From IMG/VR virus record IMGVR_UViG_3300037852_000055, positions 1 through 64,000 of that record: DNA of 64,000 bases; one strand, given 5' to 3'. Position 1 is the first letter of the stretch; every line of letters begins with the position of its first letter. The position numbers were made by a program, and so were the translations under genes. This document shows, in pieces, positions 2 through 31,560 of the stretch. The notes beneath the pieces are model-generated. The model had not been told where the DNA came from. It saw nothing but the letters and a program-made list of their open reading frames with translations, and made no database searches. The stretch is from a virus.

Positions 2-1975
2 GGCCCCGATGGGGTTCCTAGGGCTCTTATTAGCACTTCTTCTAGTGGTGTGGCTACCGCCCCCACACTGGCTTTACCAGGGGTAGTGGGAAGAAATGTT
101 AATGCTTCCACTGATACTATTGTTTCTACTGATTGTAATCCAAAGAGGATTCAGTACCTATTTTCAGGTACAGTGGCTGTAACCTTACCTACAGCCACAA
201 CTCTTGGAGACTCTTTTTGTAGTTTTAAACTTTCTATACCCAGCAACAGTAGCACTACATCTATAACTGTTACCCCCACAACGTGGACTATAAATGGTAA
301 TAGTACCCTCGTACTAAGCACAGGAGAAACCGCTAATATTTATGTAGATCCAAGTAGCAGTACAAATTGGCAAGCTGATTGTGTTCCTGTGTGTGGAGCT
401 TTGACTAACAACGCACTTCTAACAGGGGGGAAAGCTATCCAAGCACCAGTTGCAACGGCTACTTTAACTTCTTCTTTGATTTCTTTGCCTGTACCCGGTG
501 TTTTTGTGCCTACAACTATCAGTGCTTCTGATGCTTTAAAGTCAGACTGTACAGCTACCAGTACAAACACAGGAAATATTTTGGATCTTATTGGAAATCC
601 AGCATCAGCTGCTTCAGTATTTTCTGTTGACTGTGTTACTGGAAATGTTACAGGCAGTGGTACAGCTACATTGGCAAAGGTTATTGGCACTGGAGGCGTG
701 TCTGCTACAAGCGGATCAGTTAGTGCTGGGTCAACTACTGTTACTGGGGTTATGTGTCCCAGTGGAGTTACGGGGGCGTGGTGTGCAGCGGAGGGCTCCA
801 CCGCTGGCACTCCAACTGCGGGGGGAGATTACCTCCGAGCTGATTCTACGGCACATGCTTATAAAGCCTCTTTGAATAATGGTGCAGAGTTTTTATCGGC
901 GGTAAATGCTTCTTTGGCCCCTACAGGAACCATTGCGTTATCTTTTGCATCAGCCCCAGCCGGATCTAAATGCGTACAAACTAGCGGTACAGCGGGACTA
1001 GTTACAGAAGCATCCAGTGCCTGTGGCTCCGGTGGTAGCCCTAGTCTTGACCAAGTTACAGGCTCAGCTGCTCAAGCAACGGGAACAGAAACTGCAGCTG
1101 GACATGAATATACTTTTGCAGGAGTGGAAACTGCCAACCTAACTTCTCCGTTTTCTTTCACTGATGCTAACTCTACGAACAATAATACCAATGGCGCGGT
1201 TATCATCGGCACTACTGGGACAAGTACCGGAGCAGTACCTCTGCGAGTTAACGAAGCCACAGCAGCAGGTGATTTGATTGACGCTTACAATGGCGGAACA
1301 GTTACGAATGGAGTTCTCTCAGGGGGAACCAAGGAATTTGGAATCAGCGCAACAGGAGCGTTGAATGCTCTGCTCTCAATCAGCACTACGGCATCTTCCC
1401 CAGCTTGTACAGCTGGAACAGCCGGGTTCTGGTGCGGAGCGGAAGGCACAGCGTTTACAAATGCTTCAAGTACAGCAGGAATTTATCCAGATTCAACTGC
1501 TCATGAGTTTTTAGCTAAAACAAATGGAGCTTCGTCAACTGGGATGATGCTTCGTGCTCAGCCTGGTTCTATACGATCTACGGGGTTAGTTGCCGCAGTT
1601 TCCACAGCAACTTTATGTGCAGCTTCAGCTGGAGCTTGTAATACCCCAGGAACTTATGCAGTAGATATTTCCCTTTACCAAAGTGGCACAGCCTGTACTG
1701 CAAACACCACTGGAGGAGTTACTCCTTCCTTGACGTGGACAGATGGAAACGGTACCTCCCATTCAGCACAAGGCATACCTCTTGATACCAATGTAAGTGC
1801 AACTGCAGTTACTGGAACTATGGTTTGGGGAGCTACTACTTTAGGAGCATGGGGAAGCGGACACATAGTGATTGATACTAATGGTTCTGTTATTCAGTAT
1901 GCTATTGCCTTTGCTCAATGTGGTACTGGAACAGCAACCTATGCGGCAAGCTTAGTGACTACGAGGTTACAATAA
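2..1975 (+). CDS. Partial repetitive fibre-like virion protein (5' end outside window)
   Basis: The frame is open from the first bases, so the start lies upstream; about 657 residues remain. The product is rich in Gly, Ala, Ser and Thr and poor in charge, typical of phage fibre or surface proteins. Two related blocks, near residues 260-300 (AWCAAEG ... DSTAHAYKAS) and 480-520 (FWCGAEG ... DSTAHEFLAK), suggest internal duplication. The stop codon overlaps the next ATG (TAATG), so it is translationally coupled to the exported proteins downstream. No catalytic motif was seen. A structural role is inferred from composition and position. Confidence 0.6.
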   Translation, partial: GPDGVPRALISTSSSGVATAPTLALPGVVGRNVNASTDTIVSTDCNPKRIQYLFSGTVAVTLPTATTLGDSFCSFKLSIPSNSSTTSITVTPTTWTINGNSTLVLSTGETANIYVDPSSSTNWQADCVPVCGALTNNALLTGGKAIQAPVATATLTSSLISLPVPGVFVPTTISASDALKSDCTATSTNTGNILDLIGNPASAASVFSVDCVTGNVTGSGTATLAKVIGTGGVSATSGSVSAGSTTVTGVMCPSGVTGAWCAAEGSTAGTPTAGGDYLRADSTAHAYKASLNNGAEFLSAVNASLAPTGTIALSFASAPAGSKCVQTSGTAGLVTEASSACGSGGSPSLDQVTGSAAQATGTETAAGHEYTFAGVETANLTSPFSFTDANSTNNNTNGAVIIGTTGTSTGAVPLRVNEATAAGDLIDAYNGGTVTNGVLSGGTKEFGISATGALNALLSISTTASSPACTAGTAGFWCGAEGTAFTNASSTAGIYPDSTAHEFLAKTNGASSTGMMLRAQPGSIRSTGLVAAVSTATLCAASAGACNTPGTYAVDISLYQSGTACTANTTGGVTPSLTWTDGNGTSHSAQGIPLDTNVSATAVTGTMVWGATTLGAWGSGHIVIDTNGSVIQYAIAFAQCGTGTATYAASLVTTRLQ

Positions 1976-2742
1976 TGAAGCGTATTGCTCCTTACTTATT
2001 TCTTTTATGTGCACTTGTTGTTGCCCCTTATGTGAACGCTGCAACATGGACATTTAGACAGGGAGTTCGTTTAACAACCTGTGCATCTAGTAGTAATACC
2101 TGTACACTAACTATTAGTGGTACAGTTGGAGGCGCTGGTGATGTAGTAGCTATTTTTCTTGCCTGTCAAGGGGCCAACTCTACTTGCGCTATTTCTTCAG
2201 CTACTTTAGGCGCAGCAAATGCTACTCTGGTTGCTTCTAGTGGGTGCCAAACATCAGCCAGTTCTGCTGGTTCAATAGACTGCGCTTATTTTATTGCTCC
2301 CGCCGCTTCCCAAACTTCAATTGTATTTACTAATGCTATTTCTCCAACTAGTGGTTGGTATGTTGGGGCGGTAGAGTGCTCAACCTCAGGAACAGCATCT
2401 TTTGATAAGGCGGGGGCATTAGCCACTACCTCAAATGTTACCAATCCTCTAGGGCCAACGTTAACACTATCTGGCACCAATGACTGCATTGTGCAGTCTA
2501 TTCGCCCACAGGTAGCAGCCTCAGCAATTGGAGGTGGGTACACAGATGCTTACTCCTCTTTTGTGGTTACTCTTAGTGGAGCATATTTACTGAACACAAA
2601 CAGCGGAACTGGGCCAACATGGACAACAGGAAGTGGGCACGCTAGTGCGGACGGCATTGCTTTTAGTGATGGTGGAGGTAGTGTATCCTGCTCAACTTGG
2701 GGAGGCCCACAAATCCAAGGAGGCCCATCAAAGGCCCAGTAA
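1975..2742 (+). CDS. Sec-exported protein of unknown function
   Basis: 255 residues. The start at 1975 is preferred because it begins a clean signal peptide (MKRIAPYLFLLCALVVAP, cut near VNA-AT); a longer frame from 1918 would bury it. The mature part is Ser/Thr/Ala/Gly-rich with scattered Cys and looks like a beta-rich surface protein. It sits between a fibre-like protein and a lipoprotein-like gene with 0-1 nt spacing, so all are one transcript. Family not recognised; an exported or virion-surface role is inferred. Confidence 0.65.
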   Translation: MKRIAPYLFLLCALVVAPYVNAATWTFRQGVRLTTCASSSNTCTLTISGTVGGAGDVVAIFLACQGANSTCAISSATLGAANATLVASSGCQTSASSAGSIDCAYFIAPAASQTSIVFTNAISPTSGWYVGAVECSTSGTASFDKAGALATTSNVTNPLGPTLTLSGTNDCIVQSIRPQVAASAIGGGYTDAYSSFVVTLSGAYLLNTNSGTGPTWTTGSGHASADGIAFSDGGGSVSCSTWGGPQIQGGPSKAQ

Positions 2743-3129
2743 ATGAAAACTATCTTTACATTGATTTTATGTGTGTTTACTTTAGGGTGTGCTTTGCATC
2801 ATCCTGTTGTTCCACATTTGATGACTAGACCAGATTGTGCTTCAGGACTAGTTGAAGCTCCTGGTATATATAACGGTGAAGTAGTTATGCGGTGTTGGGT
2901 GCCAGAGCCAACTTGTGTGGCCTATAATGCATCAGTAAATTGTTTAGGCATATCTGCCACTGAATGCGCCCTTAAAATGAAACCTTGTATACTACTTCCA
3001 GACACTTTGGCCGTTGGAGAAGAAGATGAAGGCTCAGCAGATGAAGATGAAGCTAAAAAGGACACAGGCAACCTTAAACCACACCCATGGTGGAAGTTTT
3101 GGGTTAAGGAAAAGAATGAAGAAGATTAG
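2743..3129 (+). CDS. Small lipoprotein-like exported protein
   Basis: 128 residues, starting directly after the previous stop. The N-terminus (MKTIFTLILCVFTLGC) is a hydrophobic signal with a lipobox-like TLGC end, so membrane anchoring through Cys16 is possible, although position -3 is not the usual Leu. Six further Cys follow in the middle, then a highly charged Glu/Asp/Lys tail. Its last 14 bases overlap the phosphoesterase gene. Function unknown. Confidence 0.6.
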   Translation: MKTIFTLILCVFTLGCALHHPVVPHLMTRPDCASGLVEAPGIYNGEVVMRCWVPEPTCVAYNASVNCLGISATECALKMKPCILLPDTLAVGEEDEGSADEDEAKKDTGNLKPHPWWKFWVKEKNEED

Positions 3130-5035
3130 CAGCATTTTAATGACTATGCTTTTGTTTTGTACCTGTGCTATAGCACAAGGCACAATTACGCATATCATTT
3201 CTATAAAGAAGGAAAACCGTAGTTTTGATCATTATTTTGGAGCCTATGTTACACCTATTAGCGGTTCAGGTATTGCTTCTTTTTGTACTGGAGGCACTGC
3301 CCCAGCATATCCAAACCAAGTAAAATGCTATGCTCCCACTGACCCTACTAGTGCTTGCACTACTTATTCTGCTACCTGTGTAATGCCGTATACGTTGGCT
3401 CCTCAGGCTTTGCTTAATGAAAACACTGGAACAGTCTATGCAGATGTTGGGCACACTCGTGGTAATTTAGTAAATTATACCGATGCAGGAGCAATGGATG
3501 CCTTTCCAACCACCGGATGTGCTAGCGACACAGCAGCACAAGCAAATCAGTGTGCTTATGCATATTTTGATAGGACTAAACTTGTGTATTATTATTCTTT
3601 GGCAGATGCCTACGGTTTAGAGGATAATTTTTTTTCTAGCCAAACTCCCACCGCTCCAGCAGCTATGATGTGGTTTGCTGGGCAAGACAATGGTTTAGGT
3701 GATAATCCAATCACCACTACTACAGGAAGTTATACCTGTACAAATGGGCCAAACATTGGGGCAAATGCTCCAAGCTGTGTGGCAGGCAGCGATGCCACGG
3801 ATTGTGGAGCTGGAACCCCTCAGTGTAATGCAACATATAAGACAAACTGGACATGTGATGCAACACATACAGGAACATCGGCACCTTTTACATACACTGG
3901 GGACTTTGCCTCAGTGTCTGGAACGTATACGAGCGGAGTTTCTGGTAAGCTGTACTGTGTAAATCCCATTCTTAACCATGTAGCTACCAACGGTGTAACC
4001 TGTACTTCTAATGCCGGGTGCACAGCTCCTTATGTGCAGTGTATGGGAACAGGTTTTTATGGAGGACAATGTTCTACAGGTGGAGCAGCGTGTGTATGTT
4101 TTAATGGAAATGGATTGGCTAACGGACTAAACGGGTCTAGACCTGCAACTTGTACTGATGTAGCTGATTGTTCTACTAGTCCCAACACTTGCAATACTTC
4201 TACCAGTGTAGGTGCAGCCCTTGGAGCCCCATGTCCTAATCTCACAACCATTGCAGACCAATTGAATGCTGCCAATGTTACGTGGCATTACTACACTAGT
4301 GATCAAGCACGTAATGGTTCTGCTATGTTTCAAACCACTCGTTATGGAAACGCTGGTACATCAAAATCCTTTGCATCTAATAATTTTCCAGATACACAAT
4401 TTGCTATTGACGCAGCAGCAGCAACTGGAGAATGTACCACTGGACATGCTGTATGTACAACAGACGCTAGTTGTGGAGGAAATGGGCCGTGCATTGATAA
4501 CCCAGCTAATGCCCTTCCAACTGTTGTGTTTCTTAGTGGTTCTGGATCTACAAATGAGCACCCTGGTAATGCCGTTAGCACTGGGGTAGCGTGGACACAA
4601 ACACAGTTAAATGCGGTGTTTAATAACCCTTACTTATACAATCATTCTATAATTTTTATGGCCTATGACGATTCTGGTGGGTTCTATGATCATGTCTATC
4701 CACCGATGAGTGACGGTGTGAGTTATGGTATGCGCGTTCCTTTTATGTGTATTGGCCCTTATTGTGTTCATACTATAAACCATTTGCAAATGGGATTTGG
4801 TTCTACATTGAAATGCATTGAGCAATTCACTGGAGCTGCATCCATTGGTAGCCGTGATTCCATAGAAAACGATGCATGTTTTGGCACAGGCACTAAGGCA
4901 AGTCCTGGAACTGGAGCCAATGCAGGTATGGTTAATTTATCGCAATCTCCTATACCAGTGCCTGGAAACACTACAGTAGGGGCCTCACAAATTAATCAAG
5001 GATCGTTGTTGCCTCAAGGATCAGCTATTCAATAG
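3116..5035 (+). CDS. Exported phosphoesterase, phospholipase C / acid phosphatase (AcpA-like) family
   Basis: 639 residues. The start at 3116 follows an AAGGA site and opens a signal peptide (MKKISSILMTMLLFCTCAIA). Right after it comes the family signature IKKENRSFDHYFGAY, whose Glu-Asn and Asp are metal/active-site residues in this family. The C-terminal part has AYDDSGGFYDHVYPP and GMRVPFMCIGPY, the matching second half of the site. Family members hydrolyse phosphodiesters or phosphomonoesters outside the cytoplasm. Between the halves lie inserted Cys-rich segments with a repeated C-x-(S/T)-(N/D)-x-x-C pattern. The gene lies among fibre-like and exported proteins, so a virion-borne or secreted envelope-modifying enzyme is plausible. 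Confidence 0.8.
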   Translation: MKKISSILMTMLLFCTCAIAQGTITHIISIKKENRSFDHYFGAYVTPISGSGIASFCTGGTAPAYPNQVKCYAPTDPTSACTTYSATCVMPYTLAPQALLNENTGTVYADVGHTRGNLVNYTDAGAMDAFPTTGCASDTAAQANQCAYAYFDRTKLVYYYSLADAYGLEDNFFSSQTPTAPAAMMWFAGQDNGLGDNPITTTTGSYTCTNGPNIGANAPSCVAGSDATDCGAGTPQCNATYKTNWTCDATHTGTSAPFTYTGDFASVSGTYTSGVSGKLYCVNPILNHVATNGVTCTSNAGCTAPYVQCMGTGFYGGQCSTGGAACVCFNGNGLANGLNGSRPATCTDVADCSTSPNTCNTSTSVGAALGAPCPNLTTIADQLNAANVTWHYYTSDQARNGSAMFQTTRYGNAGTSKSFASNNFPDTQFAIDAAAATGECTTGHAVCTTDASCGGNGPCIDNPANALPTVVFLSGSGSTNEHPGNAVSTGVAWTQTQLNAVFNNPYLYNHSIIFMAYDDSGGFYDHVYPPMSDGVSYGMRVPFMCIGPYCVHTINHLQMGFGSTLKCIEQFTGAASIGSRDSIENDACFGTGTKASPGTGANAGMVNLSQSPIPVPGNTTVGASQINQGSLLPQGSAIQ

Positions 5036-5049
5036 AGGACGGACATTAA

Positions 5050-7473
5050 ATGAAAAAATTTCTTACTACACTTTTGTTGTGTGTTTTGTGTTCTCTTCCT
5101 GTTATTGGGCAATCTTATGCAGCTTATCAAGGAAATGCTTTGGTTCCTCTTCCTAGTGCCCCGAATTTTGGGACGTACACTAGAAATGGCTCAGTGTTCT
5201 ATGATACATCCTATGCAACTTCTGCTGGTTATACTGGCCCTCAACCTCCAGTTATTCGTTGTACAGACGCTAATTTAACTAGTTCTGTTAATTACCAAAG
5301 TTACTCTGCTGGGCAAGGAGGAGCTGGCAATGCTCGTGGACTATTTAACTCAAACCACACAGCATTAGTAGTTAACGGTAGTAATGTTATTTTGTTTAAT
5401 GGTAATTCTTGTGGCCCCTCAACAGGAACCCATGCTGGCTCAGGTTTTGCCATTACTACAGACATGAATACGGCTGGAGGAGGATCAAGTGCGTCTTTAG
5501 CTAACTTTGGTACACCAGCATTTGATGCTATTTCCCCCACTCTCCTATACTACACAGGTTTTGTTTTAAGTGCAACCAATGATGTACAAGCCGGAACCGT
5601 TACTATAAACACCAGTAGCGGGGCCTATACTGACAACGGTATCGTAACTGATTTTTCTACAGGTATTCCTGTGGGTTCCAATGCTCCTGCTTGGCAAGCT
5701 AATCATACGTATTCAACAGGGCAATATGTTAGCTATACCTTAACTAGTGGACAGGCTCCTGCTTGGCAATCTACACATACATACTCTCTCGGAGATATTG
5801 TTGTTCCAACAACCGGAAATCCTTCTGGTTGCATGTTTAGGGTGGTGCAAGCAGGGACTAGTAGTAGCACCCAGCCTACTTGGGGAACAGGCAACTGTGG
5901 ATACGAAACGTTGGCAGGTACAGATGGCACAGTAAAGTGGGGAGGAACATCAGCTCAGGGATCTTTTGTTTATCAGCTGATTAGTTCTGGAGGTACGAGT
6001 GGATCTTCTACTCCAGCGTTTGTTCCAATATCCACTGGCCATCCTGATATGCTTACACAGGTTAGCGATAATGGTTTAACTTGGATAAATGTTGGTCCCA
6101 ATGTTGTTGTAATTGGTGGCAGTGTGGGTTGGACTGATTTCGCATGGCAATCTAAAGATGGTACTGAAAATTGCATGGGAATTAGCACCAATAACTACGG
6201 TTGGTTGACCGGGCCACAAGGAGGAAACCTAAGCAATTATCAAGGTGAACAACAAGGCACAGGAATCTACATGGTGTGTTATAAAACCACCACTAATATT
6301 TATGTCCTTTACAATACGGCCACTGGAATAATGAGTACCACTACTTGCTCTGGTGGTACAGGATATTTATGCACTGGAGGCACTTGGAATATGTCTCCTG
6401 TAGGGGCAACTACTGCAATTACAGCGGCATCTTGCGGAGGTGGAGGATTTCTTCATGCTGGAAAATCTTCCTCAGGGGATGACTATGTTACAATGCCGTT
6501 GCAAACTTCAACAAATTGTAGCAGTGCCCCAGGAAACCCTGTGGTATGGAAACCATTCTCTAGTTTTAACTCTACAACTTCAGCTCAAGTTTTAGTTGGA
6601 GGATTGAACCATTATGGGCCAGGCTATAGCCACCTTGTTAATGTTGGTCAAAGTGGAAGCTTTAATGGGGGATTTACTGGTGGGGCTTACTCCCAGATCT
6701 ATGATCTTTCTAACCCCACAGCTATTCCCAATGTAAGTTGGCTAGTTAGTACTTGTGATACTAGGCATTATACTCCAGGTATTGTGTATACTAATCCTCC
6801 CTGTGAGTTTGCTGACGCTTATGACCAGCATACAAGCTGGGCAGCAGCGGCCATTGGGGGTGTAGATGCAGGCCCTGCTTGTGGGTCATTTTTAAACTTG
6901 TTGACTTTAAACCCTAATCCATACGCTCCGTGGCAAGGGGAAGAAATGTGTTTTTCAACTACTCCTAATTGGGTTTACGGTGGCTCTACTACTGGGCAAC
7001 AACAATGGAGATTTACTCATAGTTTCAATTCTGGCACTAATTCTAACTTTTCTGTTCAATTTTCTATAAGCCAAGTTTCTGTGGACGGAGCGTACATGGC
7101 TTGGGGAACAGATGATCTTTGTGGGTTTGGTAATACAGCTGGAACTTCTGCTGCACTGTACCCAACTGGAACAACCTTATGTGGACAAAATTGGCAACCT
7201 AGTTTTTCTTATAGTACAGGTGTACTAATAAATCCTTTTGGAGCCACTACTGGATCAGGCACAAACTTTGGAGTTTATCAGGTTACTACGGGAGGCACAA
7301 GTGCAGGCACAGCTCCGGCATGGTTTGTTTGTAATTCCGGCACGGCTGGTAACACAGTGACCGATGGAAACGGTGTAGTATACACATGCATAGGCTCAGC
7401 CAATGGTAGAGGCGATGTTTTGATCGTTGCTTTGCCACAAAGTTATGCCAGTTGGTTTGGACAATTATTGTAA
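5050..7473 (+). CDS. Large exported beta-rich protein, carbohydrate-binding/tail-like modules
   Basis: 807 residues with a signal peptide (MKKFLTTLLLCVLCSLPVIGQ). Around residues 210-305 two adjacent modules share the pattern W-x-x-x-H-T-Y-S-x-G-(Q/D)-x-V and end in DGTVKWGG, the layout of small carbohydrate-binding-type modules common in phage tail and bacterial surface proteins. A similar APAW...DGNGVVY module recurs near residue 785. The rest is Gly/Ser/Thr-rich with paired Cys. It follows the phosphoesterase by 14 bp in the same operon. A surface-binding role is inferred; no enzyme motif was seen. Confidence 0.6.
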   Translation: MKKFLTTLLLCVLCSLPVIGQSYAAYQGNALVPLPSAPNFGTYTRNGSVFYDTSYATSAGYTGPQPPVIRCTDANLTSSVNYQSYSAGQGGAGNARGLFNSNHTALVVNGSNVILFNGNSCGPSTGTHAGSGFAITTDMNTAGGGSSASLANFGTPAFDAISPTLLYYTGFVLSATNDVQAGTVTINTSSGAYTDNGIVTDFSTGIPVGSNAPAWQANHTYSTGQYVSYTLTSGQAPAWQSTHTYSLGDIVVPTTGNPSGCMFRVVQAGTSSSTQPTWGTGNCGYETLAGTDGTVKWGGTSAQGSFVYQLISSGGTSGSSTPAFVPISTGHPDMLTQVSDNGLTWINVGPNVVVIGGSVGWTDFAWQSKDGTENCMGISTNNYGWLTGPQGGNLSNYQGEQQGTGIYMVCYKTTTNIYVLYNTATGIMSTTTCSGGTGYLCTGGTWNMSPVGATTAITAASCGGGGFLHAGKSSSGDDYVTMPLQTSTNCSSAPGNPVVWKPFSSFNSTTSAQVLVGGLNHYGPGYSHLVNVGQSGSFNGGFTGGAYSQIYDLSNPTAIPNVSWLVSTCDTRHYTPGIVYTNPPCEFADAYDQHTSWAAAAIGGVDAGPACGSFLNLLTLNPNPYAPWQGEEMCFSTTPNWVYGGSTTGQQQWRFTHSFNSGTNSNFSVQFSISQVSVDGAYMAWGTDDLCGFGNTAGTSAALYPTGTTLCGQNWQPSFSYSTGVLINPFGATTGSGTNFGVYQVTTGGTSAGTAPAWFVCNSGTAGNTVTDGNGVVYTCIGSANGRGDVLIVALPQSYASWFGQLL

Positions 7474-7488
7474 TTAGGAGAAATAGAA

Positions 7489-7794
7489 ATGATAGTTTCA
7501 CCCATAATTTCAGACTTCAGACACGAGATTGTCATTTCTATTCTCGCGTCTATTTTCTTAGGAGCCGTTGCTATGCCGTTTCGTAAAGTTAAGAGTGCAT
7601 GGCTAGATCTTACTACCAAATTAGAAGCCGTGCACATTGAGCTGTCAGTACAAAGAAACAATTGTCTACAGACACTTCAGAACCAGGGTGATAAACAGAT
7701 TGAACTCCTTGGAAAAGCGGTGGACACCTTAGGGGAAATGCGTTTAGAGGCTAAGGAAACCCAAGGGTTCTTGAAAGGAATATTCCAGAAATAA
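7489..7794 (+). CDS. Small membrane protein with coiled coil (holin-like layout)
   Basis: 101 residues. One membrane segment at about residues 12-30 is followed by a long charged helix (residues 35-100) with heptad-like spacing. TAGGAG precedes the start. A single membrane helix plus soluble coiled coil fits class III holins, but also many phage membrane proteins, so the lysis role is only a possibility. Last gene before the promoter at 7.8 kb. Confidence 0.55.
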   Translation: MIVSPIISDFRHEIVISILASIFLGAVAMPFRKVKSAWLDLTTKLEAVHIELSVQRNNCLQTLQNQGDKQIELLGKAVDTLGEMRLEAKETQGFLKGIFQK

Positions 7795-7798: not shown

Positions 7799-7828
7799 TT
7801 GACATTTCGTGTTTTTCCGTGGTATACT
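7799..7828 (+). promoter_or_regulatory. Sigma-70-type promoter, plus strand
   Basis: TTGACA at 7799-7804 and TATACT at 7823-7828 are separated by 18 bp, with GTGG just before the -10. It lies in the 63 bp gap ahead of the metallophosphoesterase gene. The same -10 context recurs at 38.84 kb (minus) and 51.06 kb (plus). Confidence 0.8.
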
Positions 7829-12873: not shown

Positions 12874-13178
12874 ACAGGGTTAGACTCCTTAGGAACATCC
12901 TTAGGCAATACAACGGTTTTACCCACAGCATCTAGCATGTTTTGAAGCTCAAGATCATACTCTGGTTTCCACCCACCTCCTCCTTTGGGTGACCAAGGCC
13001 ATGGTTTAGGTTCTCTGTCCCTCCACCTATCTCCTCCTTCATTTTTGTCTCCTCTGTGTTTCCATGCTTTGTACAATTCATAGATGCAATAGATAACCAA
13101 AGTTGCTGGGAATATGTACATAGCGTAGGCCGTTATTGTGAACCATAGGGGCGTCATTGGTTTGCCCTGTTTTCCCAT
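12867..13178 (-). CDS. Small membrane protein next to lysozyme (possible holin)
   Basis: 103 residues, one strong membrane segment at about 10-38, then a charged Trp/Pro/Gly-rich cytoplasmic tail. An internal start at MTPLWF is possible. Its start lies within the 3' end of the lysozyme gene, and small membrane proteins in this place are often holins or lysis regulators. The role is inferred from position only. Confidence 0.6.
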   Translation of the reverse strand: MGKQGKPMTPLWFTITAYAMYIFPATLVIYCIYELYKAWKHRGDKNEGGDRWRDREPKPWPWSPKGGGGWKPEYDLELQNMLDAVGKTVVLPKDVPKESNPVC

Positions 13179-13615
13179 CCTTCAAGAAATTTGGATTCCT
13201 CAGGATTAGCAGCTACAATGTCTTTGTAATGCTGCACAAGATTAGTCCTGTATAACGGTAGGAAATTCTCCGCTGTAAAGCTGTTGATTGCTGTTTCAGT
13301 TACAGGACCATACACGCCATCCTGCTTAGAAAAGCCCACTGTCTTTTGGGCAATTTTTATAGCGGCATGCATCATATTCACATAGGAATCGAAAATCTTA
13401 TTAGCAATGGCTTGGTCTGTTATTCCTCCGAATTTCCAAAAATCTCTCAAGTAAATTGCCTTGGCATCTTCAATGGTTAGGTTCTTAACATCAACGTCGG
13501 GATAAGTACGTTTGCTTATGCCATACTTAGTTTCTCCACCGGGGTCTGCTGGATCGTCCACCAGACCCCCTTCATTTTTCAGTGTAATCTCAACTGCTGG
13601 TTCAAAGTTTGCCAT
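13154..13615 (-). CDS. Endolysin, glycoside hydrolase family 108 type
   Basis: 153 residues. NEGGLVDDPADPGGETKYGISKRTYPDVD (positions 14-42) is the hallmark of GH108 lysozymes; Glu15 is the expected catalytic acid. The C-terminal part (VGFSKQDGVYGPVTETAINS) matches the putative peptidoglycan-binding half of the family. It cleaves the glycan strand of peptidoglycan at lysis. No signal peptide, so a holin or similar would be needed. Confidence 0.9.
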   Translation of the reverse strand: MANFEPAVEITLKNEGGLVDDPADPGGETKYGISKRTYPDVDVKNLTIEDAKAIYLRDFWKFGGITDQAIANKIFDSYVNMMHAAIKIAQKTVGFSKQDGVYGPVTETAINSFTAENFLPLYRTNLVQHYKDIVAANPEESKFLEGWENRANQ

Positions 13616-15970: not shown

Positions 15971-16321
15971 TTACCAAGTAATTTTCAGAGCGTAAGGTGT
16001 GTATTCTTCAACTTTAAAACCTTTGTCTCTGTAGTGCTTTATTAGGGTCTGGTGGATTATATAATCTGACTCTCCTAACCATATAATAGGGTCACCGCCA
16101 GGGTTAATGTCAGACGGTTCATAAATACTATGGTAGCCCCCTAGAGCTGCTTTTTTAATGTAACCATCAATTCTTCTAGTTAGCTCAGGCCCACGTTTTT
16201 TCCATAAAGTGGCTTCAGCTTTGTCTTCTTTCTTTTTCCTTGCATCATTCCACTGGTTATTTTCCTTGGTAGTTTTTTCTAGCCAATTTTTAGCATGTCC
16301 TCGGGCTTCTAAGGCATTCAT
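15971..16321 (-). CDS. Hypothetical basic protein (116 aa)
   Basis: Lys/Arg-rich helical N-terminus ([20 protein letters not shown]), then a small alpha/beta part ([23 protein letters not shown]). Its start overlaps the recA stop by 4 bp, so the two are co-translated. No family recognised; a nucleic-acid role is possible. Confidence 0.6.
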
Positions 16322-18384
16322 AGTTTCTCCATTGGTAATGCAGGAGTAGAACCTACGGGTTCCTCTGCAAGTGTCTTTACATATTCCTTTATTTTCTTTT
16401 GCAGCTTAGTGATAACCTCTGGACTGTTCCTAAGTGTTTCCTTAAGGTTGTCCAAACCATTTGCAATGCGTTCTCCATCCATCCAGTACCAAGAACCCTT
16501 GGATTCAAACAGGCCATGTTTCGCTGCATATGCAATGGTATCTGCTACCTTATCAAAGCCTGGTTGACGGCCAGCTCCGGGGTACAAAAGGTCAAGCTCA
16601 GCAGTTCTAAAGGGTATACCACCCTTATTCTTTTCAATACGCATGATAAGCTTGTGCCCAACAATGTTTTCTTTAGTGCCTTCCCAAATGGCTTCTCCTC
16701 GGCGTACTTTAATACGACTTGACGCTGCAAATTTCAGGGCACGTCCCCCGGTGGTGGTTTCAGGATTGCCATACATTACCCCAATCTTTTCCCTCACCTG
16801 GTTCAAAAAAACTAAACTGACCATGTTCTTAGAGCACTTACCTACAAGTATACGCATGGCTTGTGCCATCATACGGGCCTGTAGGCCCATATGTGAATTG
16901 TGACAAACAATGTTACCCAAAGCACATACAAAGGTTCCAGCTTTAGTGCTTATGTCATATAAATACTCTGGCCCCTTTACTTCATAAAATGCTCTTATTT
17001 CTGCTGGGTGGTTTTGCAAGCGTTTGGGGGCTTCACTAAGGGTTAGTTGCCACTCCCTCTCTTTAGTTACTACTACATTAGTTTGTATTCCTAAGGAACT
17101 ATTTAGGTATTGTATTCCAGCAATGGCTGGCCACGAAGTGTTAAAGTATTTTCTAGGACCATCGCTAGAATGATTACCGTCCCCTTCCCAAAACCCTGTA
17201 AGAAAAGACTTCTTAACAGTTTCTGTGCCGTTAAGAATAAACAGTGGCACGCATTTTTTTAAAGATAGTTCAGAAATACAAGACTGCATTAGAAAACCTA
17301 AACTAGTGTCAGTGGGGCAGTCCATAGCGTACAGGGCTTTTCTATTGCCTTTAGCCTTATTAACCATGCGTACTGTCCCTTTTATGGAAAAATTATTAAG
17401 TACAAGTGTTTTGCATTTTTCCATTCTGTATTTATCAGTACCACAAACTGAAAACCTATTGCAACCACTAGTTCTTGGGGTAGACCCCTCTGCTACATAC
17501 ATACCTAGAAGCCAGGCAATATCTTCGTTAACTACCGAGCATGTTCCAGATGTAGGAGGCGTTTGTATATCTAGCCTATCAAAAACAGACAGTTCTGCTG
17601 GAGATACTTCCTTTCCATTTATAAATAATGAATGATCTTTTGTTGTCCCTATGTATCCTGTAGAAGTACGAGTGTATACTATGGGTTTATTTTTTACATT
17701 TTTCTTTTTTTGCACACCTAGTAAAGGAACCCATCCCTTGTGGGATAAGACTTCTAACATTGATGTTTTTGTATACCATCCTGTAGCATTTCCTTTGTGG
17801 AATAGGTCACCTATTTGTACTATATTTACGGCTGTGCTTCCTTTTCTTCTGATGTAGACAGGGGTTTCGTAAACCACGCTATCTCCAATGTCCCCTGCCA
17901 ACTCTGCTTCTGGTACTAGGGCAGCTACTGAGTCTACCACGATAAGGCTAACCGCCCCTGTCTCCACCAGCCCATCCACGGCTTGTAAAGCTTGTTCCCC
18001 AGACATTGGTTGTGTAAAAACCAACCTGTCTAGGTTTACCCCTAGGGCTTTTGCATAGTTAGGGTCTAGGGCGTGCTCGGCATCTACATAGGCTGCTAGG
18101 CCCCCTAGCCTTTGCTCCTCAGCTACAATGTGCAGAGCCGTGGTGGTTTTCCCGGCAGACTCTCCACCAAACAGCTCCACAATGCGCCCCCTAGGGATTC
18201 CTCCGAATTGTAAAGCCTCGTAATCAAATGATGGAAGTCCTGTGGGTATACAAGGGATAAGCATAAGTTTTTTACTGTTCAGAAATACCAAGGAGTTTTC
18301 TGTTTTATGTTCCTTGTCCAATTTTTCTGACAAAGCTTTTACAGAGGCCATCTTTTGTTTTTCAGTTAATTCTTCTGTCGGCAT
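16318..18384 (-). CDS. recA: RecA recombinase precursor with intein
   Basis: 688 residues, of which 360 form RecA and 328 an intein. RecA features: Walker [10 protein letters not shown] (residues 73-81), Walker [11 protein letters not shown], and the L2-side [13 protein letters not shown]. The intein interrupts the L1 DNA-binding loop exactly between Asp and Ser of the conserved GD-SHMGLQ. RecA catalyses strand exchange and homologous repair of phage DNA. Neighbours are RuvC-like, helicase and nuclease genes of the same operon. RecA is active only after splicing. Confidence 0.95.
16897..17880 (-). mobile_element. RecA intein with LAGLIDADG homing endonuclease
   Basis: Residues 169-496 of the precursor. 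It starts with Ser1 ([12 protein letters not shown]) and ends in the splice block [22 protein letters not shown], followed by Ser of the C-extein, so both splice junctions use Ser. Two LAGLIDADG helices, [11 protein letters not shown] and [11 protein letters not shown], each with an acidic residue, indicate an intact homing endonuclease. The insertion point is one of the most conserved places of RecA. Confidence 0.93.
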
Positions 18385-24127: not shown

Positions 24128-24613
24128 TTACAAAATGTATGGCAAAGCTTTTACTGCTTTATTCCTAGCTTTATTCGCTTTTTCTTTTGTAGAAAACGTT
24201 CCTAATTGTTTGTTTCCTAGCTTTGCTATCCAAACGTTTCTGTCTTTACGAAAGAAAACCCCTAGGCCCCTTTGGTTGCGAAAAATTTGATCTTGTGCGT
24301 GTCCCTTTTTTGATCTCCATTCTAACTTGTGCGCCCTATTGTCTTTCTTTTTCCCTTTGTGATTAACTTCTGGCAGGTTTAGTGGGTTTGGTAGGAAAGC
24401 TTTTGCTACAAGTCTATGTACTTTTCTAGTGTAAGCTTTGCTTTTACTCTCTTTGTGCAGTATAACATAATAATAGCCAAGTTTATCACACCCCGGCCTA
24501 AACATGTGGCCTATTTTAGTTGGGCCTTTCCCTGGCAATCGTCTTCTTACTCTCCCTTGGTCACTAACTTCGTAAGCCTCAAAGTCTTCTACTGTTTTCC
24601 ATTGTTCTTTCAA
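24128..24613 (-). CDS. NUMOD4-HNH homing endonuclease with AP2-like tail
   Basis: 161 residues from a TTG start. WKTVEDFEAYEVSDQGRVRR is a NUMOD4 module, VHRLVAKAFLPNP ... EVNHKGKKKDNRAHKLEW is the HNH nuclease, and GVFFRKDRNVWIAKL ... FSTKEKANKARNKAV an AP2-like DNA-binding tail. Free-standing, placed between the primase-helicase and a small gene whose end it overlaps by 35 bp. A selfish element that probably targets the replication locus of related phages. Confidence 0.88.
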   Translation of the reverse strand: MKEQWKTVEDFEAYEVSDQGRVRRRLPGKGPTKIGHMFRPGCDKLGYYYVILHKESKSKAYTRKVHRLVAKAFLPNPLNLPEVNHKGKKKDNRAHKLEWRSKKGHAQDQIFRNQRGLGVFFRKDRNVWIAKLGNKQLGTFSTKEKANKARNKAVKALPYIL

Positions 24614-24737
24614 TTGGTTCTCTCTTTAGCAGTCGGGCCATGATTTTATCCCGTAAATCTGCCGAAGGCTCAATGTTTAGCAGTTCTTGTAGCTCCTCAG
24701 GCGATGCCAGAGGGCCTGTACCAGTCAGTTCAAGCAT
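24579..24737 (-). CDS. Small hypothetical protein (52 aa), tail overlapped by homing endonuclease
   Basis: MLELTGTGPLASPEELQELL... ending RTMENSRRL. The last 11 codons lie inside the NUMOD4-HNH gene, so the original C-terminus may have been changed by insertion of that gene. Confidence 0.45.
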   Translation of the reverse strand: MLELTGTGPLASPEELQELLNIEPSADLRDKIMARLLKREPIERTMENSRRL

Positions 24738-24751
24738 ATTTTGGCCTCTAC

Positions 24752-24814
24752 TTATTTAGATGCTTTTGGGGTGAAGAAGGATTCAAAAACTTGTAAACCC
24801 TTTGTTTTCTTCAT
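24752..24814 (-). CDS. Possible 20-aa peptide
   Basis: ATG overlaps the upstream stop (ATGA); reads MKKTKGLQVFESFFTPKASK. Only coupling and spacing support it. Confidence 0.3.
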   Translation of the reverse strand: MKKTKGLQVFESFFTPKASK

Positions 24815-25116
24815 TGTATACCCCTTGTCTCCTGTCGTTCAAACATTTTTTGCCCTAGATATGTTGGAGTGTATTTCTTGAATTTCCTATTGGGAAACTG
24901 GGTAGCAAGCTTTTCAAAGATAGGGTCAGCAATTGCTGAGTCCTCTTGCAACAAGCCTAAGGCTACAAGGGCATCTACTTGGTCTACCCTATACTTCCAT
25001 TCTTTGTAAATCTCAGGCTTATCCAGGGCCTCGTCCGGTTGAATTTGTACGAGAGCCTTACTAGCAGCGGCTGCGGTTGCAGCGTCGTACTGTATTGGGC
25101 TTAGCTGTGGAATCAT
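24811..25116 (-). CDS. Hypothetical protein (101 aa)
   Basis: Start chosen at the ATG 2 nt after the upstream stop (GGAA site), not at an upstream in-frame Met. Helical, with QVDALVALGLLQEDSAIADPIFEKL and a basic C-terminus. Not recognised. Confidence 0.6.
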   Translation of the reverse strand: MIPQLSPIQYDAATAAAASKALVQIQPDEALDKPEIYKEWKYRVDQVDALVALGLLQEDSAIADPIFEKLATQFPNRKFKKYTPTYLGQKMFERQETRGIQ

Positions 25117-25118
25117 AG

Positions 25119-25388
25119 TTATTTCCAATTCCTTCCTGTGGGCCAACATGAGGGGTGATATTGTTCACTTACTATAGCTCCTTTGTACACCCCAGCAGTG
25201 CATACTATTTCTTGTCCTGATTCTTTGTCATGCCACACATAAAAAGCTGCTGGAAATTGTCCTGAATGATCTTCATTATAGATGTTTTCAAACCTTGGCC
25301 TAGGAATTGTTTGTTCTTTTCCCCAAACAAAAGCCCCCAATAACAACCAAACAAAAGCCCCAACCAACATTGCTGTAAACTTTTTCAT
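25119..25388 (-). CDS. Small exported protein, paralogue of downstream neighbour
   Basis: 89 residues with signal or anchor MKKFTAMLVGAFVWLLLGAFVWG. The mature part ends in WHDKESGQEIVCTAG ... SCWPTGRNWK. The same pattern (HD-x-x-x-x-Q-E-(I/V), two Cys, TGR-x-W end) is in the adjacent 71-aa gene, so the two are diverged tandem copies. Exported; function unknown. Confidence 0.65.
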   Translation of the reverse strand: MKKFTAMLVGAFVWLLLGAFVWGKEQTIPRPRFENIYNEDHSGQFPAAFYVWHDKESGQEIVCTAGVYKGAIVSEQYHPSCWPTGRNWK

Positions 25389-25604
25389 TTACCACGTCCT
25401 CCCTGTGAGGTAACAAGCAGTCGCATTGAGATCACCAAAAACACAAATTACTTCTTGCTTAGTTTGGGTATCATGGTAATAGTCAAAGAGTACATGTCCG
25501 TTCTTATCTGCTACCCGTTCAGAGCCTAGGAACACCATTCTCTGTGTATTTTGCCCCAAAGCAAAGGCCCCTAGGATTACCAATGCAATAGCAATTTTTT
25601 TCAT
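25389..25604 (-). CDS. Small exported protein, paralogue of neighbour
   Basis: 71 residues: signal peptide MKKIAIALVILGAFALG, then YYHDTQTKQEVICVFGD ... ACYLTGRTW, matching the 89-aa neighbour. The two Cys probably form a disulfide. Start overlaps the SF2 helicase stop by 4 bp. Confidence 0.65.
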   Translation of the reverse strand: MKKIAIALVILGAFALGQNTQRMVFLGSERVADKNGHVLFDYYHDTQTKQEVICVFGDLNATACYLTGRTW

Positions 25605-27388
25605 TTCTTACTCCTTTGGTTTTTCAATAGGTCTATAGCTAAACTTGCTTCCCCCGCCGTTATCACAGGTAATTTACAGACACCACATTGGGTACCCACT
25701 GGTTTGTTCCCTGGACATATGCACTTGAGAATTGGTTTTCCCTTGCTTAGTGTCCGTAGGTACTTGCGTACAGCCTCCGTGGATGGCCCGTTCTTCCGTT
25801 CACTCTCCCTTGTGAGCAGTTTCAAACGCTCAGGTCTACACCTACGCACTACATCATCGGCAGTTTCAAAAGCTTCCTTGAGCGTAGCAAAAGTGCCAAG
25901 TTTACGAGTGTCCTTGGTAGTAGAAATGGACAGTTCCCATTCGTCCAGTTCGTTTTGTTCCAGATGCAGTTTCTCATGTAAATACTGGGAGTACTGCCCT
26001 TTGATTGCTTGGCGCTCTGGGATTGACAAAATGTATGACCCATCGGCCCCAGAGATCCACCCCAGTTTACTAAACTTTTGTACTTCCTCGGTATAAGGCT
26101 CAGCAAACAAGTCAATGGATTCTATGTAGGCCTTGATCTTAGAAAGGTCAGTTAGGTTTGATAAGTTTACAGTTGGGTATTTTTCCTGTAAGTCGCTAAG
26201 CTCTTTTTCAGCAGCTAACACGGAGCCCCCATGCAAATTCATGGCAGGGTTCATGCCAAACAAAGAAGGCAGTGTTATTAAACTGCAACGCTTGTATGAA
26301 TCACAAACATCTATGACAAGGCAGTTTTCTTTGCCTGGGTGAAGTCTTGTACCTCGACCTATCTTTTGGGTGTACCTAGAGCTGCTGCGGTCTGGCGTAG
26401 CTAATACTATACAGGAAACTTTAGTAGAATCAAAGCCCTCAATTAAAAGGGACGCATTGCATAGTGCTTCTAGTTTTCCCTCTTCAAACCAAATAAGTTT
26501 AGAAGCTCTTTGCACATCTACCCCGTAGATAGGTGCTGCACACACCCCATTGCGAAGAAACTCTTCTGCCAAGGCTTTAGCGTGGTCAATCCCAGCGGTA
26601 AATGCAATGGTTGGCCGTCCCACCGCGTTATCTTTCCAAGCTTTTACAACCAAAGAATTACGCTCAGGGGTATTCACAGCAGTGGACAGTTCATCACTCT
26701 TGAATTCCCCAGCTACTACTTTGACTTCATCAAGGCTAGTCTTAGTATCTACCCTAATGCCTTTAAGAGGGACAAGGAAACCATCAGCTATGGCCTTCCG
26801 CAACGGATAACTGTACACAATCTTCTTGAAAATGCTCTTAAGAGAAACCGTGTCTTCATCGTCCAGCAGTACCATGTCCTTGGCTTGGCCCCTAGCTTTA
26901 CTTCTGCTCTTAGGGGTGGCGCTAAGGCCTACCAGAAGCTTTTTACTTTCTGGCAGAAACACGCCTGAATCATTGAGAATACGTAAGTAAGTGTCTCCTT
27001 GGCGATGGCATTCATCTAGAACAATGATTGAAATGTCATTCCAAAAGTTATCCAAACGTTTAGACCCAGAACGGCCTACAGAAGCGTTGCAGGCTACAAT
27101 TACATCACAATCAGGATCAGCATGGTGCTCAGCTTTTTCTAATCCCACTTTAAGCTGCGGGTTCCATGTTTTTATCTTGTCCATCGCTTGGTTAAGCAGT
27201 TCTTCTGTATGAGCAATGAAAAGCATTTTTCCATTGGGCACCGTGCCTTTTAGATATGTAGGCAGATTAGCTGCTAACAAGGTTTTACCTGCGCCTGTAC
27301 ACCAGAATACCAGTTGCTGTCGTATTCCTTCTTTGTAGGCTTCAGCTATCGCTGCTAAAGTTTCTTTCTGGTAGTAGCGTAGCTCCAT
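25601..27388 (-). CDS. SF2 DNA/RNA helicase (DECH box)
   Basis: 595 residues. Motif I CTGAGKT (about 30-36), motif II LDECHRQG, motif III LSATPKS and motif VI YTQKIGRGTRLHPG are in order, as in phage UvsW-like and restriction-type helicases. The C-terminal 200 residues add a helical domain and a zinc ribbon CICPGNKPVGTQCGVCKLP. Likely a branch-migration or fork-remodelling helicase serving recombination-dependent replication. Confidence 0.88.
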   Translation of the reverse strand: MELRYYQKETLAAIAEAYKEGIRQQLVFWCTGAGKTLLAANLPTYLKGTVPNGKMLFIAHTEELLNQAMDKIKTWNPQLKVGLEKAEHHADPDCDVIVACNASVGRSGSKRLDNFWNDISIIVLDECHRQGDTYLRILNDSGVFLPESKKLLVGLSATPKSRSKARGQAKDMVLLDDEDTVSLKSIFKKIVYSYPLRKAIADGFLVPLKGIRVDTKTSLDEVKVVAGEFKSDELSTAVNTPERNSLVVKAWKDNAVGRPTIAFTAGIDHAKALAEEFLRNGVCAAPIYGVDVQRASKLIWFEEGKLEALCNASLLIEGFDSTKVSCIVLATPDRSSSRYTQKIGRGTRLHPGKENCLVIDVCDSYKRCSLITLPSLFGMNPAMNLHGGSVLAAEKELSDLQEKYPTVNLSNLTDLSKIKAYIESIDLFAEPYTEEVQKFSKLGWISGADGSYILSIPERQAIKGQYSQYLHEKLHLEQNELDEWELSISTTKDTRKLGTFATLKEAFETADDVVRRCRPERLKLLTRESERKNGPSTEAVRKYLRTLSKGKPILKCICPGNKPVGTQCGVCKLPVITAGEASLAIDLLKNQRSKK

Positions 27389-27402
27389 GGTTCTCCTTTG
27401 GG

Positions 27403-27582
27403 TTATCCTAAGTATACTACAATTTCATCCTCCAGCTTCATAAGCTGGTCGTAATCCTTGGCATATAGGTCTGGGCCATAATCCTCAGGGTCATAATATT
27501 TCTTATCCACAGCTTCTAGCAAGGTACGTAATTGCTTTGCCAATTTGCCGATACGATTGGAAATTGCTTTGTCTATTCTCAT
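27403..27582 (-). CDS. Small hypothetical protein (59 aa)
   Basis: Start at 27582, 1 nt past the upstream stop, gives MRIDKAISNRIGKLAKQLRT; longer in-frame starts lie inside the neighbour. Helical with an acidic centre. Confidence 0.6.
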   Translation of the reverse strand: MRIDKAISNRIGKLAKQLRTLLEAVDKKYYDPEDYGPDLYAKDYDQLMKLEDEIVVYLG

Positions 27583-27583
27583 G

Positions 27584-27946
27584 TTAATCCTTCCATTGTC
27601 TGTATACCCTTTTGTGATGCTTGGTCTCCATTGTAACATCCCTGAGCAATTCAATGTAAGCCGAAGGCACCTGATCAATGTCTAGCCTTACAATTCTATT
27701 GGGAAACTCAAGCACCCCCTTGTGGGTAAGTATTTGTAATTCCATGTTAGGAAAATAGTCATCGTCAATTCCCCATACATGGATTCTCCATCGGGTTTCT
27801 TCTTTACCCCTTAAGTTTGTATGTACTTCGCCTTTTATAGCTAGTACTTTTCCTATGCGTATGCCAGCGCATCGGCCCAGGGCGTGTCCATAAGCAATGT
27901 AGTCCCCTACGTTAATGTCTTGGCCTATTTTATCCTTAGGAATCAT
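27584..27946 (-). CDS. Hypothetical protein with SH3-like beta start (120 aa)
   Basis: GQDINVGDYIAYGHALGRCAGIRIGKVLAI followed by RWRIHVWGIDDDY looks like a small beta-barrel of the sort found in many phage accessory proteins. Basic C-terminus. ATGA overlap with the next gene upstream. No function assigned. Confidence 0.6.
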   Translation of the reverse strand: MIPKDKIGQDINVGDYIAYGHALGRCAGIRIGKVLAIKGEVHTNLRGKEETRWRIHVWGIDDDYFPNMELQILTHKGVLEFPNRIVRLDIDQVPSAYIELLRDVTMETKHHKRVYRQWKD

Positions 27947-28584
27947 TCGCCTGTCCCTAAGAGCTTCTGAGGCTCTGGCTTTTTCATAAACAACAAAATA
28001 GGGTTTAGTTCATTCAATGACACGCTGAGCAAATGCAAAGCTTCTCTCTTAGGGTCAGAGCCAAAAGCTGCTTGCCAGGCAATACGCTGTGTGATTGACA
28101 TAGGGATGCTTAGGTGAATTAGAGCGTGTGTGTTTCCCCCTTTGGACTCTGACACTTCAAACTGCTGAGGTATGTACCCAAGTGTTTGCTCAAGGATTCC
28201 CAGCGTATCATAAAACTGCCCTGGGAGTGCACCATCAAAAACCCAGTTATCGTAATCTAGCATTAAAGTTTTATCATCAGCCAAAACTACTTGCCATTTA
28301 TTAGAGAAACCTTTGTCGTCTAGGTACTTTTGTGCAGCCTGAGCATGGTCATTGTTTAATACGTTTGTTACATCACTACCCCTTGGGTTGTTGCTTGTTC
28401 TCTGGGGATTTATACCAAACACTTCATCCTGACATACTTGGCATAGCCCACTGATACCAAATTCTTTCTTCGATAGTTCATCTCTAAATGTACCCACAGG
28501 CTTACTACAACTAGGGCACAACCCTTGGTCAATTCTTTCTAATTTCTTGGTATATCCCACGGCTTCCATAATTGCTCGATTCAT
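27943..28584 (-). CDS. Zinc-ribbon phage protein of unknown function (213 aa)
   Basis: N-terminal zinc ribbon CPSCSKPVG ... CQVCQDEVF. The C-terminal domain contains MLDYDN and SKGGNTHALIHLSIPMSITQRIAWQAAFGSDPKRE (quoted in part), a recurrent phage pattern that recalls primase-polymerase-like folds, but catalytic residues could not be verified. Located in the replication operon. Confidence 0.55.
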   Translation of the reverse strand: MNRAIMEAVGYTKKLERIDQGLCPSCSKPVGTFRDELSKKEFGISGLCQVCQDEVFGINPQRTSNNPRGSDVTNVLNNDHAQAAQKYLDDKGFSNKWQVVLADDKTLMLDYDNWVFDGALPGQFYDTLGILEQTLGYIPQQFEVSESKGGNTHALIHLSIPMSITQRIAWQAAFGSDPKREALHLLSVSLNELNPILLFMKKPEPQKLLGTGE

Positions 28585-28964
28585 TACTCGCTCCTTTGTT
28601 TAACCACTGGACAAACCATTTTGAAGTCAAAGTTCTCAAGACGTGCTAAGGAATACACAGGATTACCTTCAGAATCTAGAGGCACAATAATCTTGGTATT
28701 ATCACTGGGCTTAAAGTCTTTTATACACTGCTTAGCTGGCCACTCCATAGAGATTATTTTTTTCACACACTTAAACCCCCCTCTAGGATCAGACACTTTA
28801 CTCTCATCTTCATTGCAGTGGGTGTCTGGGAAGTATATGGTTGTGCATTGTGGCTCCTGAGCATATGAGGTGGCGTTTATAACTATAAACAATAGAATTA
28901 ACAAAATTGTCAATGTAAAAATAGCCACCACTACTGTGTGTTTAGTGTCATTATGTGAAAGCAC
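28584..28964 (-). CDS. Exported or membrane-anchored Cys-containing protein
   Basis: 126 residues from a GTG with AGGAG 5 nt upstream. Hydrophobic segment at about 10-32 ending ATSYA-Q, then six Cys in the exported part. The start lies inside the peptidase gene upstream. Unknown. Confidence 0.6.
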   Translation of the reverse strand: MLSHNDTKHTVVVAIFTLTILLILLFIVINATSYAQEPQCTTIYFPDTHCNEDESKVSDPRGGFKCVKKIISMEWPAKQCIKDFKPSDNTKIIVPLDSEGNPVYSLARLENFDFKMVCPVVKQRSE

Positions 28965-29533
28965 TTTGACTCCTGTTCTACTATCACCCGCCCCATGGCT
29001 TGGTAATAAATTAATCTCATTTCTAGATACTTAGTCTGCGCTCTGGTTAACCCTGCACGCCCTAGGTCTATTGTACAACCTGCTTCATGGGAGCTAGCTA
29101 ATTCCCCCTCGGCTGGTGCTGCATTCCTATTGTATCTCCTTAGCTTCTTTTGTACAACCACTGGCCTAATTGCGCTGGTCAATACCAAGGGTTTCCCAAA
29201 TTGTTCATAGAATTCCCCAGAGAGCTGCCCCAGGAAGGAGTTAACCTGAGGCAGCACATAGCGCCGATTCACTGGTAAACTATGCGCTATAACCATCGCG
29301 CCACTCGTGACTGGAGCCACTAGGTTACCAGCTTGTACTAAATTTTTAAGTTCCTTCTCGTCTCGTACTCGTGCCAAGTGTTGCTGGTCTATGGTTTCGT
29401 TCTGTAGGTACAGGGCTTGTCTTGTTGGACACAAGAGGGGCGAACAGTTCTTGTATCTGTGGTGTGGCTTCGCCTGTGCAAAGGAAGTGCATAAAATCAA
29501 GAATAGGATTATCCTTAGGTTTTTCATTAGCAT
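28931..29533 (-). CDS. Exported M15-like peptidase (DUF5715-type)
   Basis: 200 residues with signal peptide MKNLRIILFLILCTSFAQA. Downstream, LVLTSAIRPVVVQKKL, SSHEAGCTIDLG and KCFHIM give the H ... D ... H zinc layout of D-Ala-D-Ala carboxypeptidase/endopeptidase-like (M15) enzymes. It probably cuts peptidoglycan peptides in the periplasm. Its first 188 bp overlap the C-terminus of the next gene upstream in another frame. Confidence 0.75.
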   Translation of the reverse strand: MLMKNLRIILFLILCTSFAQAKPHHRYKNCSPLLCPTRQALYLQNETIDQQHLARVRDEKELKNLVQAGNLVAPVTSGAMVIAHSLPVNRRYVLPQVNSFLGQLSGEFYEQFGKPLVLTSAIRPVVVQKKLRRYNRNAAPAEGELASSHEAGCTIDLGRAGLTRAQTKYLEMRLIYYQAMGRVIVEQESKCFHIMTLNTQ

Positions 29534-29918: not shown

Positions 29919-30196
29919 CAACTTGCCCTCCTTATGGTTACTTCTCCGGTTACTGCATTTACTTCTATGGTTAACCCATGTTCTCCGTTGCGTATTGCTG
30001 TGTGAACGCCTGAGTGACAAGCACTGCAAAGTGTGAGCAAATTCCAGGCCAAATCAGGCCCACCTTGGCTTCTAAACCAAACATGATGAACGTGTAAAAC
30101 ACTTCTAAACCCACAGTTACGACACATATACCCATCGCGCCTTAGGACTTCTTGGCATAGCCTATCATATTCCTCAGGAGGTAGGCGAAGGCTCAC
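29903..30196 (-). CDS. Small HNH endonuclease
   Basis: 97 residues from GTG. CRNCG ... LHVHHVWFRSQGGPDLAWNLLTLC-SACH is a complete HNH motif with two CxxC zinc pairs, like compact HNH nucleases of phages. It could be homing or recombination-linked. Overlaps both neighbours by 16-23 bp. Confidence 0.85.
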   Translation of the reverse strand: MSLRLPPEEYDRLCQEVLRRDGYMCRNCGFRSVLHVHHVWFRSQGGPDLAWNLLTLCSACHSGVHTAIRNGEHGLTIEVNAVTGEVTIRRASWWKPQ

Positions 30197-31433: not shown

Positions 31434-31560
31434 TTCTTCTACCAAGTTTATTCTCCCTTCTTGCTTTCCTTCCCTGCGTCTCGTTGTGCTTGGTTCATTC
31501 CTTCCTTCCTTCGCGGCAAAAAGCCGCTGACCCCTTAATGCAAAAGCCGCAATCCCATTG

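Follow-up and report, generated by a model that had tools for sequence, protein, structure and literature searches.

A predicted exported phosphoesterase of the PLC/AcpA superfamily with Cys-rich inserts, encoded between the fibre and holin-like genes of a soil phage

We analysed a 64,000-nucleotide window, comprising positions 1 to 64,000 of the IMG/VR virus record IMGVR_UViG_3300037852_000055 (100,044 bases in full). Near the left end of the window, an intact open reading frame of 639 codons runs from the ATG at 3116 to the TAG at 5035 and encodes a protein of 639 amino acids; its start overlaps the small gene upstream by 14 bases. A first-pass annotation made from the letters alone had placed an exported PLC/acid-phosphatase-type enzyme here, among fibre-like and exported genes, and its coordinates proved exact and its description of the neighbours held (table 1). 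The fibre-type gene upstream shares its C-terminus with a fibre of the unrelated phage G001 and its N-terminal part with fibre or collar proteins of related phages.

Table 1. Features of the region from the fibre gene to the holin-like gene, in window positions.
Feature	Position	Strand	Basis or remark
Tail-fibre-type gene, truncated at its 5' end where the record begins	50-1975	+	fibre similarity
Predicted exported protein, first gene of the cassette	1975-2742	+	signal peptide; no phage match
Small predicted exported protein, lipoprotein-like, weak lipobox	2743-3129	+	N-terminus
Shine-Dalgarno-like AAGGA	3106-3110	+	upstream of the ATG at 3116, read from the sequence
PF04185 phosphoesterase gene, predicted exported	3116-5035	+	profile match, AlphaFold2 model, Foldseek
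Predicted signal peptide MKKISSILMTMLLFCTCAIA, cleavage before Q21	3116-3175	+	heuristic, lambda and T7 controls
ENRSFDHYFG motif, residues 33-42, predicted metal/catalytic E33 and N34	3212-3241	+	invariant in 54 of 54; aligned with AcpA E43/N44
Thr179, predicted nucleophile	3650-3652	+	equivalent of AcpA S175 and NPC4 T158
Cys-rich insert 1, about residues 200-372, low model confidence	3713-4231	+	alignment, model; no database match
Cys-rich insert 2, residues 433-463	4412-4504	+	alignment, model
His482, invariant	4559-4561	+	equivalent of AcpA H350 and NPC4 H264
DDSGGFYDH motif, residues 518-526, with D518/D519	4667-4693	+	equivalent of AcpA D386/D387
Large predicted exported protein; one short segment is similar to a phage decoration family	5050-7473	+	signal peptide, family comparison
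Holin-like small membrane protein	7489-7794	+	homologues in G474, G476, G477, G480, G482 and G483
Promoter-like site, 11/12, extended -10	7799-7828	+	consensus match only; between the cassette and the nuclease at 7858

The PF04185 profile matched residues 24-570 of the protein almost from end to end (profile positions 1-351 of 356), with an E-value of 9.1e-40 and a score of 137 bits where the cutoff is 23, far beyond chance. None of the PHROG families matched the protein, so its type is not among the established families of phage proteins. Two narrower profiles were missed by a wide margin: TIGR03396 (phosphocholine-specific PLC) scored 107.8 bits against an equivalog cutoff of 580, and TIGR03397 (Burkholderia-type acid phosphatase) 72.4 bits against a subfamily cutoff of 363. 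With scores this far below the cutoffs, neither activity can be assigned to the phage protein.

Both halves of the phosphoesterase signature, ENRSFDHYFG and DDSGGFYDH, were located complete, as first annotated, and the entire catalytic set of NPC4 and AcpA is present (E33, N34, H113, T179, H482, D518 and D519), so that no metal ligand is missing. Equivalences with AcpA were taken from a pairwise alignment to 2d1g, while H113 was equated with NPC4 H79 by family conservation rather than by direct alignment. Across 54 aligned sequences, E33, N34, H482 and D518 were invariant, H113 was found in 53, and position 179 was occupied only by Ser or Thr. Alanine substitution of E23, N24, H79, T158, H264, D299 or E300 lowers or abolishes NPC4 activity, and NPC4 T158 is phosphorylated, acting as the nucleophile (PMC9837106). 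Position 183 holds Ala in the phage protein, as in AcpA, and His or Arg in the 53 other sequences. By these sequence criteria the gene is a member of PF04185, of the PLC/AcpA superfamily, with a complete catalytic set and predicted enzymatic activity. Sequence cannot decide whether the substrate class is a lipid, a surface phosphodiester or a phosphate source.

An AlphaFold2 model built from the 54-sequence alignment (pTM 0.74) had a core pLDDT of about 90, with the inserts and the C-terminus mostly below 50. When the model was searched against the PDB with Foldseek, the top 11 matches were all chains of the PLC/AcpA family at E 1e-11 or better (PLC-N, 1.5e-17; AcpA, 3.7e-15), followed at about 1e-3 by members of the wider superfamily (sulfatases, phosphomutases). 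Predicted viral structures gave just two good matches, both of them giant-virus proteins. The modelled core thus has an alkaline-phosphatase-like PLC/AcpA fold, the outcome that the first-pass annotation had anticipated from structure prediction. Past the matched domain about 65 residues remain, mostly of low model confidence, and no C-terminal domain was identified in them.

The protein carries two Cys-rich insertions, which are missing from all 53 relatives compared and which the earlier annotation had rightly called unusual. For the first, the span from the nucleophile region to W390 is 188 residues long and holds 16 Cys; in the relatives this span has medians of 44 residues (maximum 117) and 2 Cys (maximum 6). 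The second insertion measures 35 residues and contains 4 Cys, where the relatives have 6-8 residues (median 6). Searches of Pfam, the PDB and isolate phages gave no match to insert 1. The whole protein contains 32 Cys. The inserts themselves are real and unusual, whereas their disulphides and any function they have are inferred; they could alter access to the active site.

The N-terminus, MKKISSILMTMLLFCTCAIA followed by QG after the predicted cut, fits a Sec signal peptide by a heuristic of our own, in agreement with the first reading. In control proteomes the heuristic picked out 4 of the 52 proteins of lambda and 2 of the 39 of T7; all were Lom, Bor, Rz-type or other membrane-anchored proteins, and virion structural proteins were never flagged. 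Gln after the signal-peptide cut was considered as a clue to the host and dropped, since it is seen in several phyla.

Four genes (1975-7473) separate the fibre gene from the holin-like gene; signal peptides are clear in three of them, and the fourth is lipoprotein-like. In six long relatives that share the holin-like gene (G474, G476, G477, G480, G482 and G483), it follows the fibre genes directly or nearly directly, and this order matches that of T7. Because these relatives lack the phosphoesterase gene and have little or nothing between their fibre and holin-like genes, the gene belongs to an accessory cassette that spans 5.5 kb, consists of exported genes and was inserted at the junction. 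The cassette is a moron-type accessory set of exported genes between conserved phage genes. Its largest product (5050-7473) gave an uninformative single-sequence structure model (pLDDT 33). Promoter-like sites such as the one after the cassette were no commoner than in shuffled sequences, and terminator-like ones were fewer.

Proteins with signal peptides were also observed in the fibre regions of other phages, namely other kinds in the relative G019 (65128-78641) and further ones in the unrelated G001 (24159-35576). Those of G001 and G019 (loci L035-L043) include fibre-like and collagen-like proteins, and several are cut before Gln. Exported genes in the fibre region may be general among these soil phages.

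The source record encodes RecA, a primase-helicase, a DNA repair nuclease, a dNMP kinase and a terminase, and it is syntenic with the 101-kb relative G019 over most genes; its terminase is common to 19 IMG/VR records and its large tail protein to 21. The carrier is a podovirus-like phage, and its endolysin is a GH108 gene at 13154-13615. The start of the record falls inside the fibre gene and the end inside another gene, which resembles internal virion proteins of relatives (G000:C1:99590-100044). Circular closure was rejected on the grounds that the ends lie in two different genes; for the same reason a piece expected to hold internal virion proteins is missing, which leaves the cassette unaffected. 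Elsewhere in the window we observed a RecA/UvsX-type gene with a LAGLIDADG (intein-like) insertion (16318-18384, minus strand), the RecA halves being contiguous in G019, apparently without the insertion, and a B12-dependent ribonucleotide reductase-like gene with weak matches to known domains (54920-56806, minus strand). Several glycosyltransferase-like and NAD-dependent epimerase-like genes of the tail region (G000:C1:87533-90931, L003) are kept in G019.

Such an enzyme is unusual for a phage, as the first reading held. No PF04185 gene was found in the roughly 20 related phage records searched, which include G019 and other long ones as well as many fragments. Elsewhere in IMG/VR at least three credible phage records carry one: G001 (60.5 kb), G002 (55 kb) and G028 (50 kb). 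The scans covered 2.9 million contigs by pattern and alignment and miss divergent members, so the count is a lower bound; the matches came from a DDxxG pattern and the alignment search, and neither a peptide-pattern search with the phosphoesterase alone nor the exact ENRSFDHYFG pattern returned anything. In G002, an unrelated phage, the gene adjoins a papain-type protease and a GH25 endolysin; in G001 and G028 it lies among DNA-metabolism genes. Isolate phages gave no genuine PF04185 match, and no study of a phage PF04185 enzyme was found in the literature collection searched. Phages very rarely carry PF04185. The only isolate-phage matches, labelled 'Acinetobacter phage MD-2021a' (CAKLQH020000009.1 and CAKLQF020000013.1), were discarded as bacterial chromosome; the stretch of the former that was examined is, despite the phage label, ordinary bacterial chromosome with metabolic genes. 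Locus L132 was likewise discarded, being the edge of an Acinetobacter prophage beside a chromosomal-type PLC, and the phage 'phosphoesterase' gp48 was set aside as a precedent, since it is described as metallophosphoesterase-like, a different family.

In the family tree a very long branch (3.1 changes per column) leads to the window protein. Grouping all four phage proteins in one clade was rejected (AU p 2e-5), and pairing the window protein with that of G001 was not. The best bacterial matches come from soil lineages at 31-34% identity, and 297 Acidobacteriota and 148 Eremiobacterota genomes (445) held nothing better than 1e-26. In the reading favoured below, the gene descends from the bacterial PF04185 family that is abundant in soil bacteria. 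One Eremiobacterota genome (G027, that of L054; 3.7 Mb) had 67 phosphoesterase matches, several of them clustered on contig C11, and is a case of extreme PF04185 family expansion.

Compared with characterized proteins, the phage protein has the same core fold as PLC-N (9gy2) and PLC-H (9gye) of Pseudomonas, a Streptomyces phosphodiesterase (8yk5) and NPC4 (8hav/8haw), and shares with them ENRSFD, YD[DE]..GF[YF]DH, the Thr nucleophile and the acidic metal-binding set. The bacterial members of this group are exported, as is predicted for the phage protein. It differs from this group in being phage-encoded, in its two Cys-rich insertions, in having D519 for Glu and A183 for His or Arg, and in lacking a recognizable C-terminal membrane domain. 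Francisella AcpA (2d1g) shares the DDSxGxYDHVY motif, Ala at 183, a short C-terminus and the same metal ligands, and differs in having Ser rather than Thr as nucleophile and no Cys-rich inserts; identity is about 15% in the structural alignment. The best sequence matches, PF04185 proteins of soil Acidobacteriota, Eremiobacterota, Chloroflexota and Actinomycetota, are exported or lipoproteins and have no inserts. Those of G001, G002 and G028 are viral like the window protein, but are without inserts and do not form one clade. The giant-virus proteins, from Sylvanvirus and Hyperionvirus, are PF04185-type by fold match only. A secreted PLC/AcpA enzyme is of an already known kind; the phage carrier and the Cys-rich inserts are what is unusual.

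On balance we favour, as probable, a Sec-exported PF04185 phosphoesterase from an accessory cassette that hydrolyses phosphoesters of the envelope late in infection. Gene order and the promoter-like site after the cassette suggest that the cassette is probably transcribed with the late genes. The signal peptide and the 32 Cys point to an enzyme that would be exported to the host envelope and stabilized there by disulphides. Homology with NPC4 and AcpA suggests a mechanism in which the E33/N34/D518/D519 site activates Thr179, which would attack the phosphoester to form phospho-Thr; this would then be hydrolysed with the help of H113 and H482. The likeliest targets, speculatively, would be host-envelope phosphoesters such as phospholipid head groups, and the gain might be an envelope weakened for lysis, with freed phosphate as a side benefit. 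The papain-type protease and GH25 endolysin beside the G002 gene speak for this reading. The unusual A183, the scores far below both subfamily cutoffs and inserts that could alter access to the active site count against it. Phospholipid hydrolysis by NPC4 depends on its C-terminal domain (PMC9837106), and that no such domain was identified in the phage protein counts against phospholipids in particular. The placing of the G001 and G028 genes among DNA-metabolism genes counts against lysis, and with the GH108 endolysin located elsewhere the case for a lysis role is one of position.

Alternatively, the gene could be an auxiliary metabolic gene for phosphate salvage, freeing Pi from periplasmic or extracellular organic phosphates in P-poor soil to feed phage DNA synthesis. 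The AcpA-like active site at D518/D519 and A183, the failure to identify a PLC C-terminal domain and the DNA-metabolism neighbours in G001 and G028 all agree with this reading, but the window gene sits in the late fibre/holin-like region, and further phosphate-acquisition genes were not identified among the genes scanned; we consider salvage possible, if doubtful. Superinfection exclusion in the style of exported morons, in which the enzyme and its exported neighbours would alter surface phosphoesters or mask the receptor, would explain why three or four exported genes follow one another right behind the receptor-binding fibre. It also has a parallel in lambda Lom, an exported non-virion protein whose gene is similarly placed between J and the fibre genes, although Lom is an outer-membrane protein, no enzyme and unrelated in sequence. 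The gain would be smaller for a virulent phage, and we regard exclusion as improbable.

The first-pass annotation had assigned the gene to a tail module, and a virion-associated enzyme that degrades surface phosphodiesters at entry would agree with the adjoining fibre gene and with the decoration-like stretch of the large neighbour. However, the signal peptide and the 32 Cys suit export and not virion assembly in the cytoplasm, and the six relatives compared make fibre, holin-like gene and tail without the phosphoesterase. A tail enzyme is therefore very unlikely, and an accessory exported cassette between the fibre and holin-like genes fits better than a tail module: of the earlier reading, the exported PLC/acid-phosphatase-type enzyme in a genuine phage genome stands, and tail membership as worded does not. 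Host contamination or chimaeric assembly, which the annotation had raised as a possible refutation, is barely credible: just 3 kb separate the gene from one end of a record cut inside genes at both ends, but it has the fibre gene on one side and on the other the holin-like gene common to at least six related phages, beyond which the nuclease and dNMP kinase stand in the same order as in the 101-kb relative; its GC3 (0.30) equals that of the cassette neighbours and fibre gene (0.28-0.29), and a close homologue was absent from the bacterial genomes searched.

With the favoured reading, envelope-phosphoester hydrolysis, a broader proposal can be made, which we hold only tentatively and think rather unlikely as a whole: that soil phages have repeatedly recruited secreted PLC/AcpA-type enzymes, and that the version with disulphide-rich inserts described here would be an envelope-attacking factor acting around lysis, which adds the breakdown of lipids or phosphoesters to the holin/endolysin/spanin scheme. 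Because such genes recur in phage records whose proteins fall into more than one clade, a lysis aid and phosphate salvage can be tested against each other. Some soil bacteria encode many secreted PLC/AcpA-type enzymes, phages almost none; one in the late region of a phage would tie infection to the turnover of envelope lipid or of phosphate in soil.
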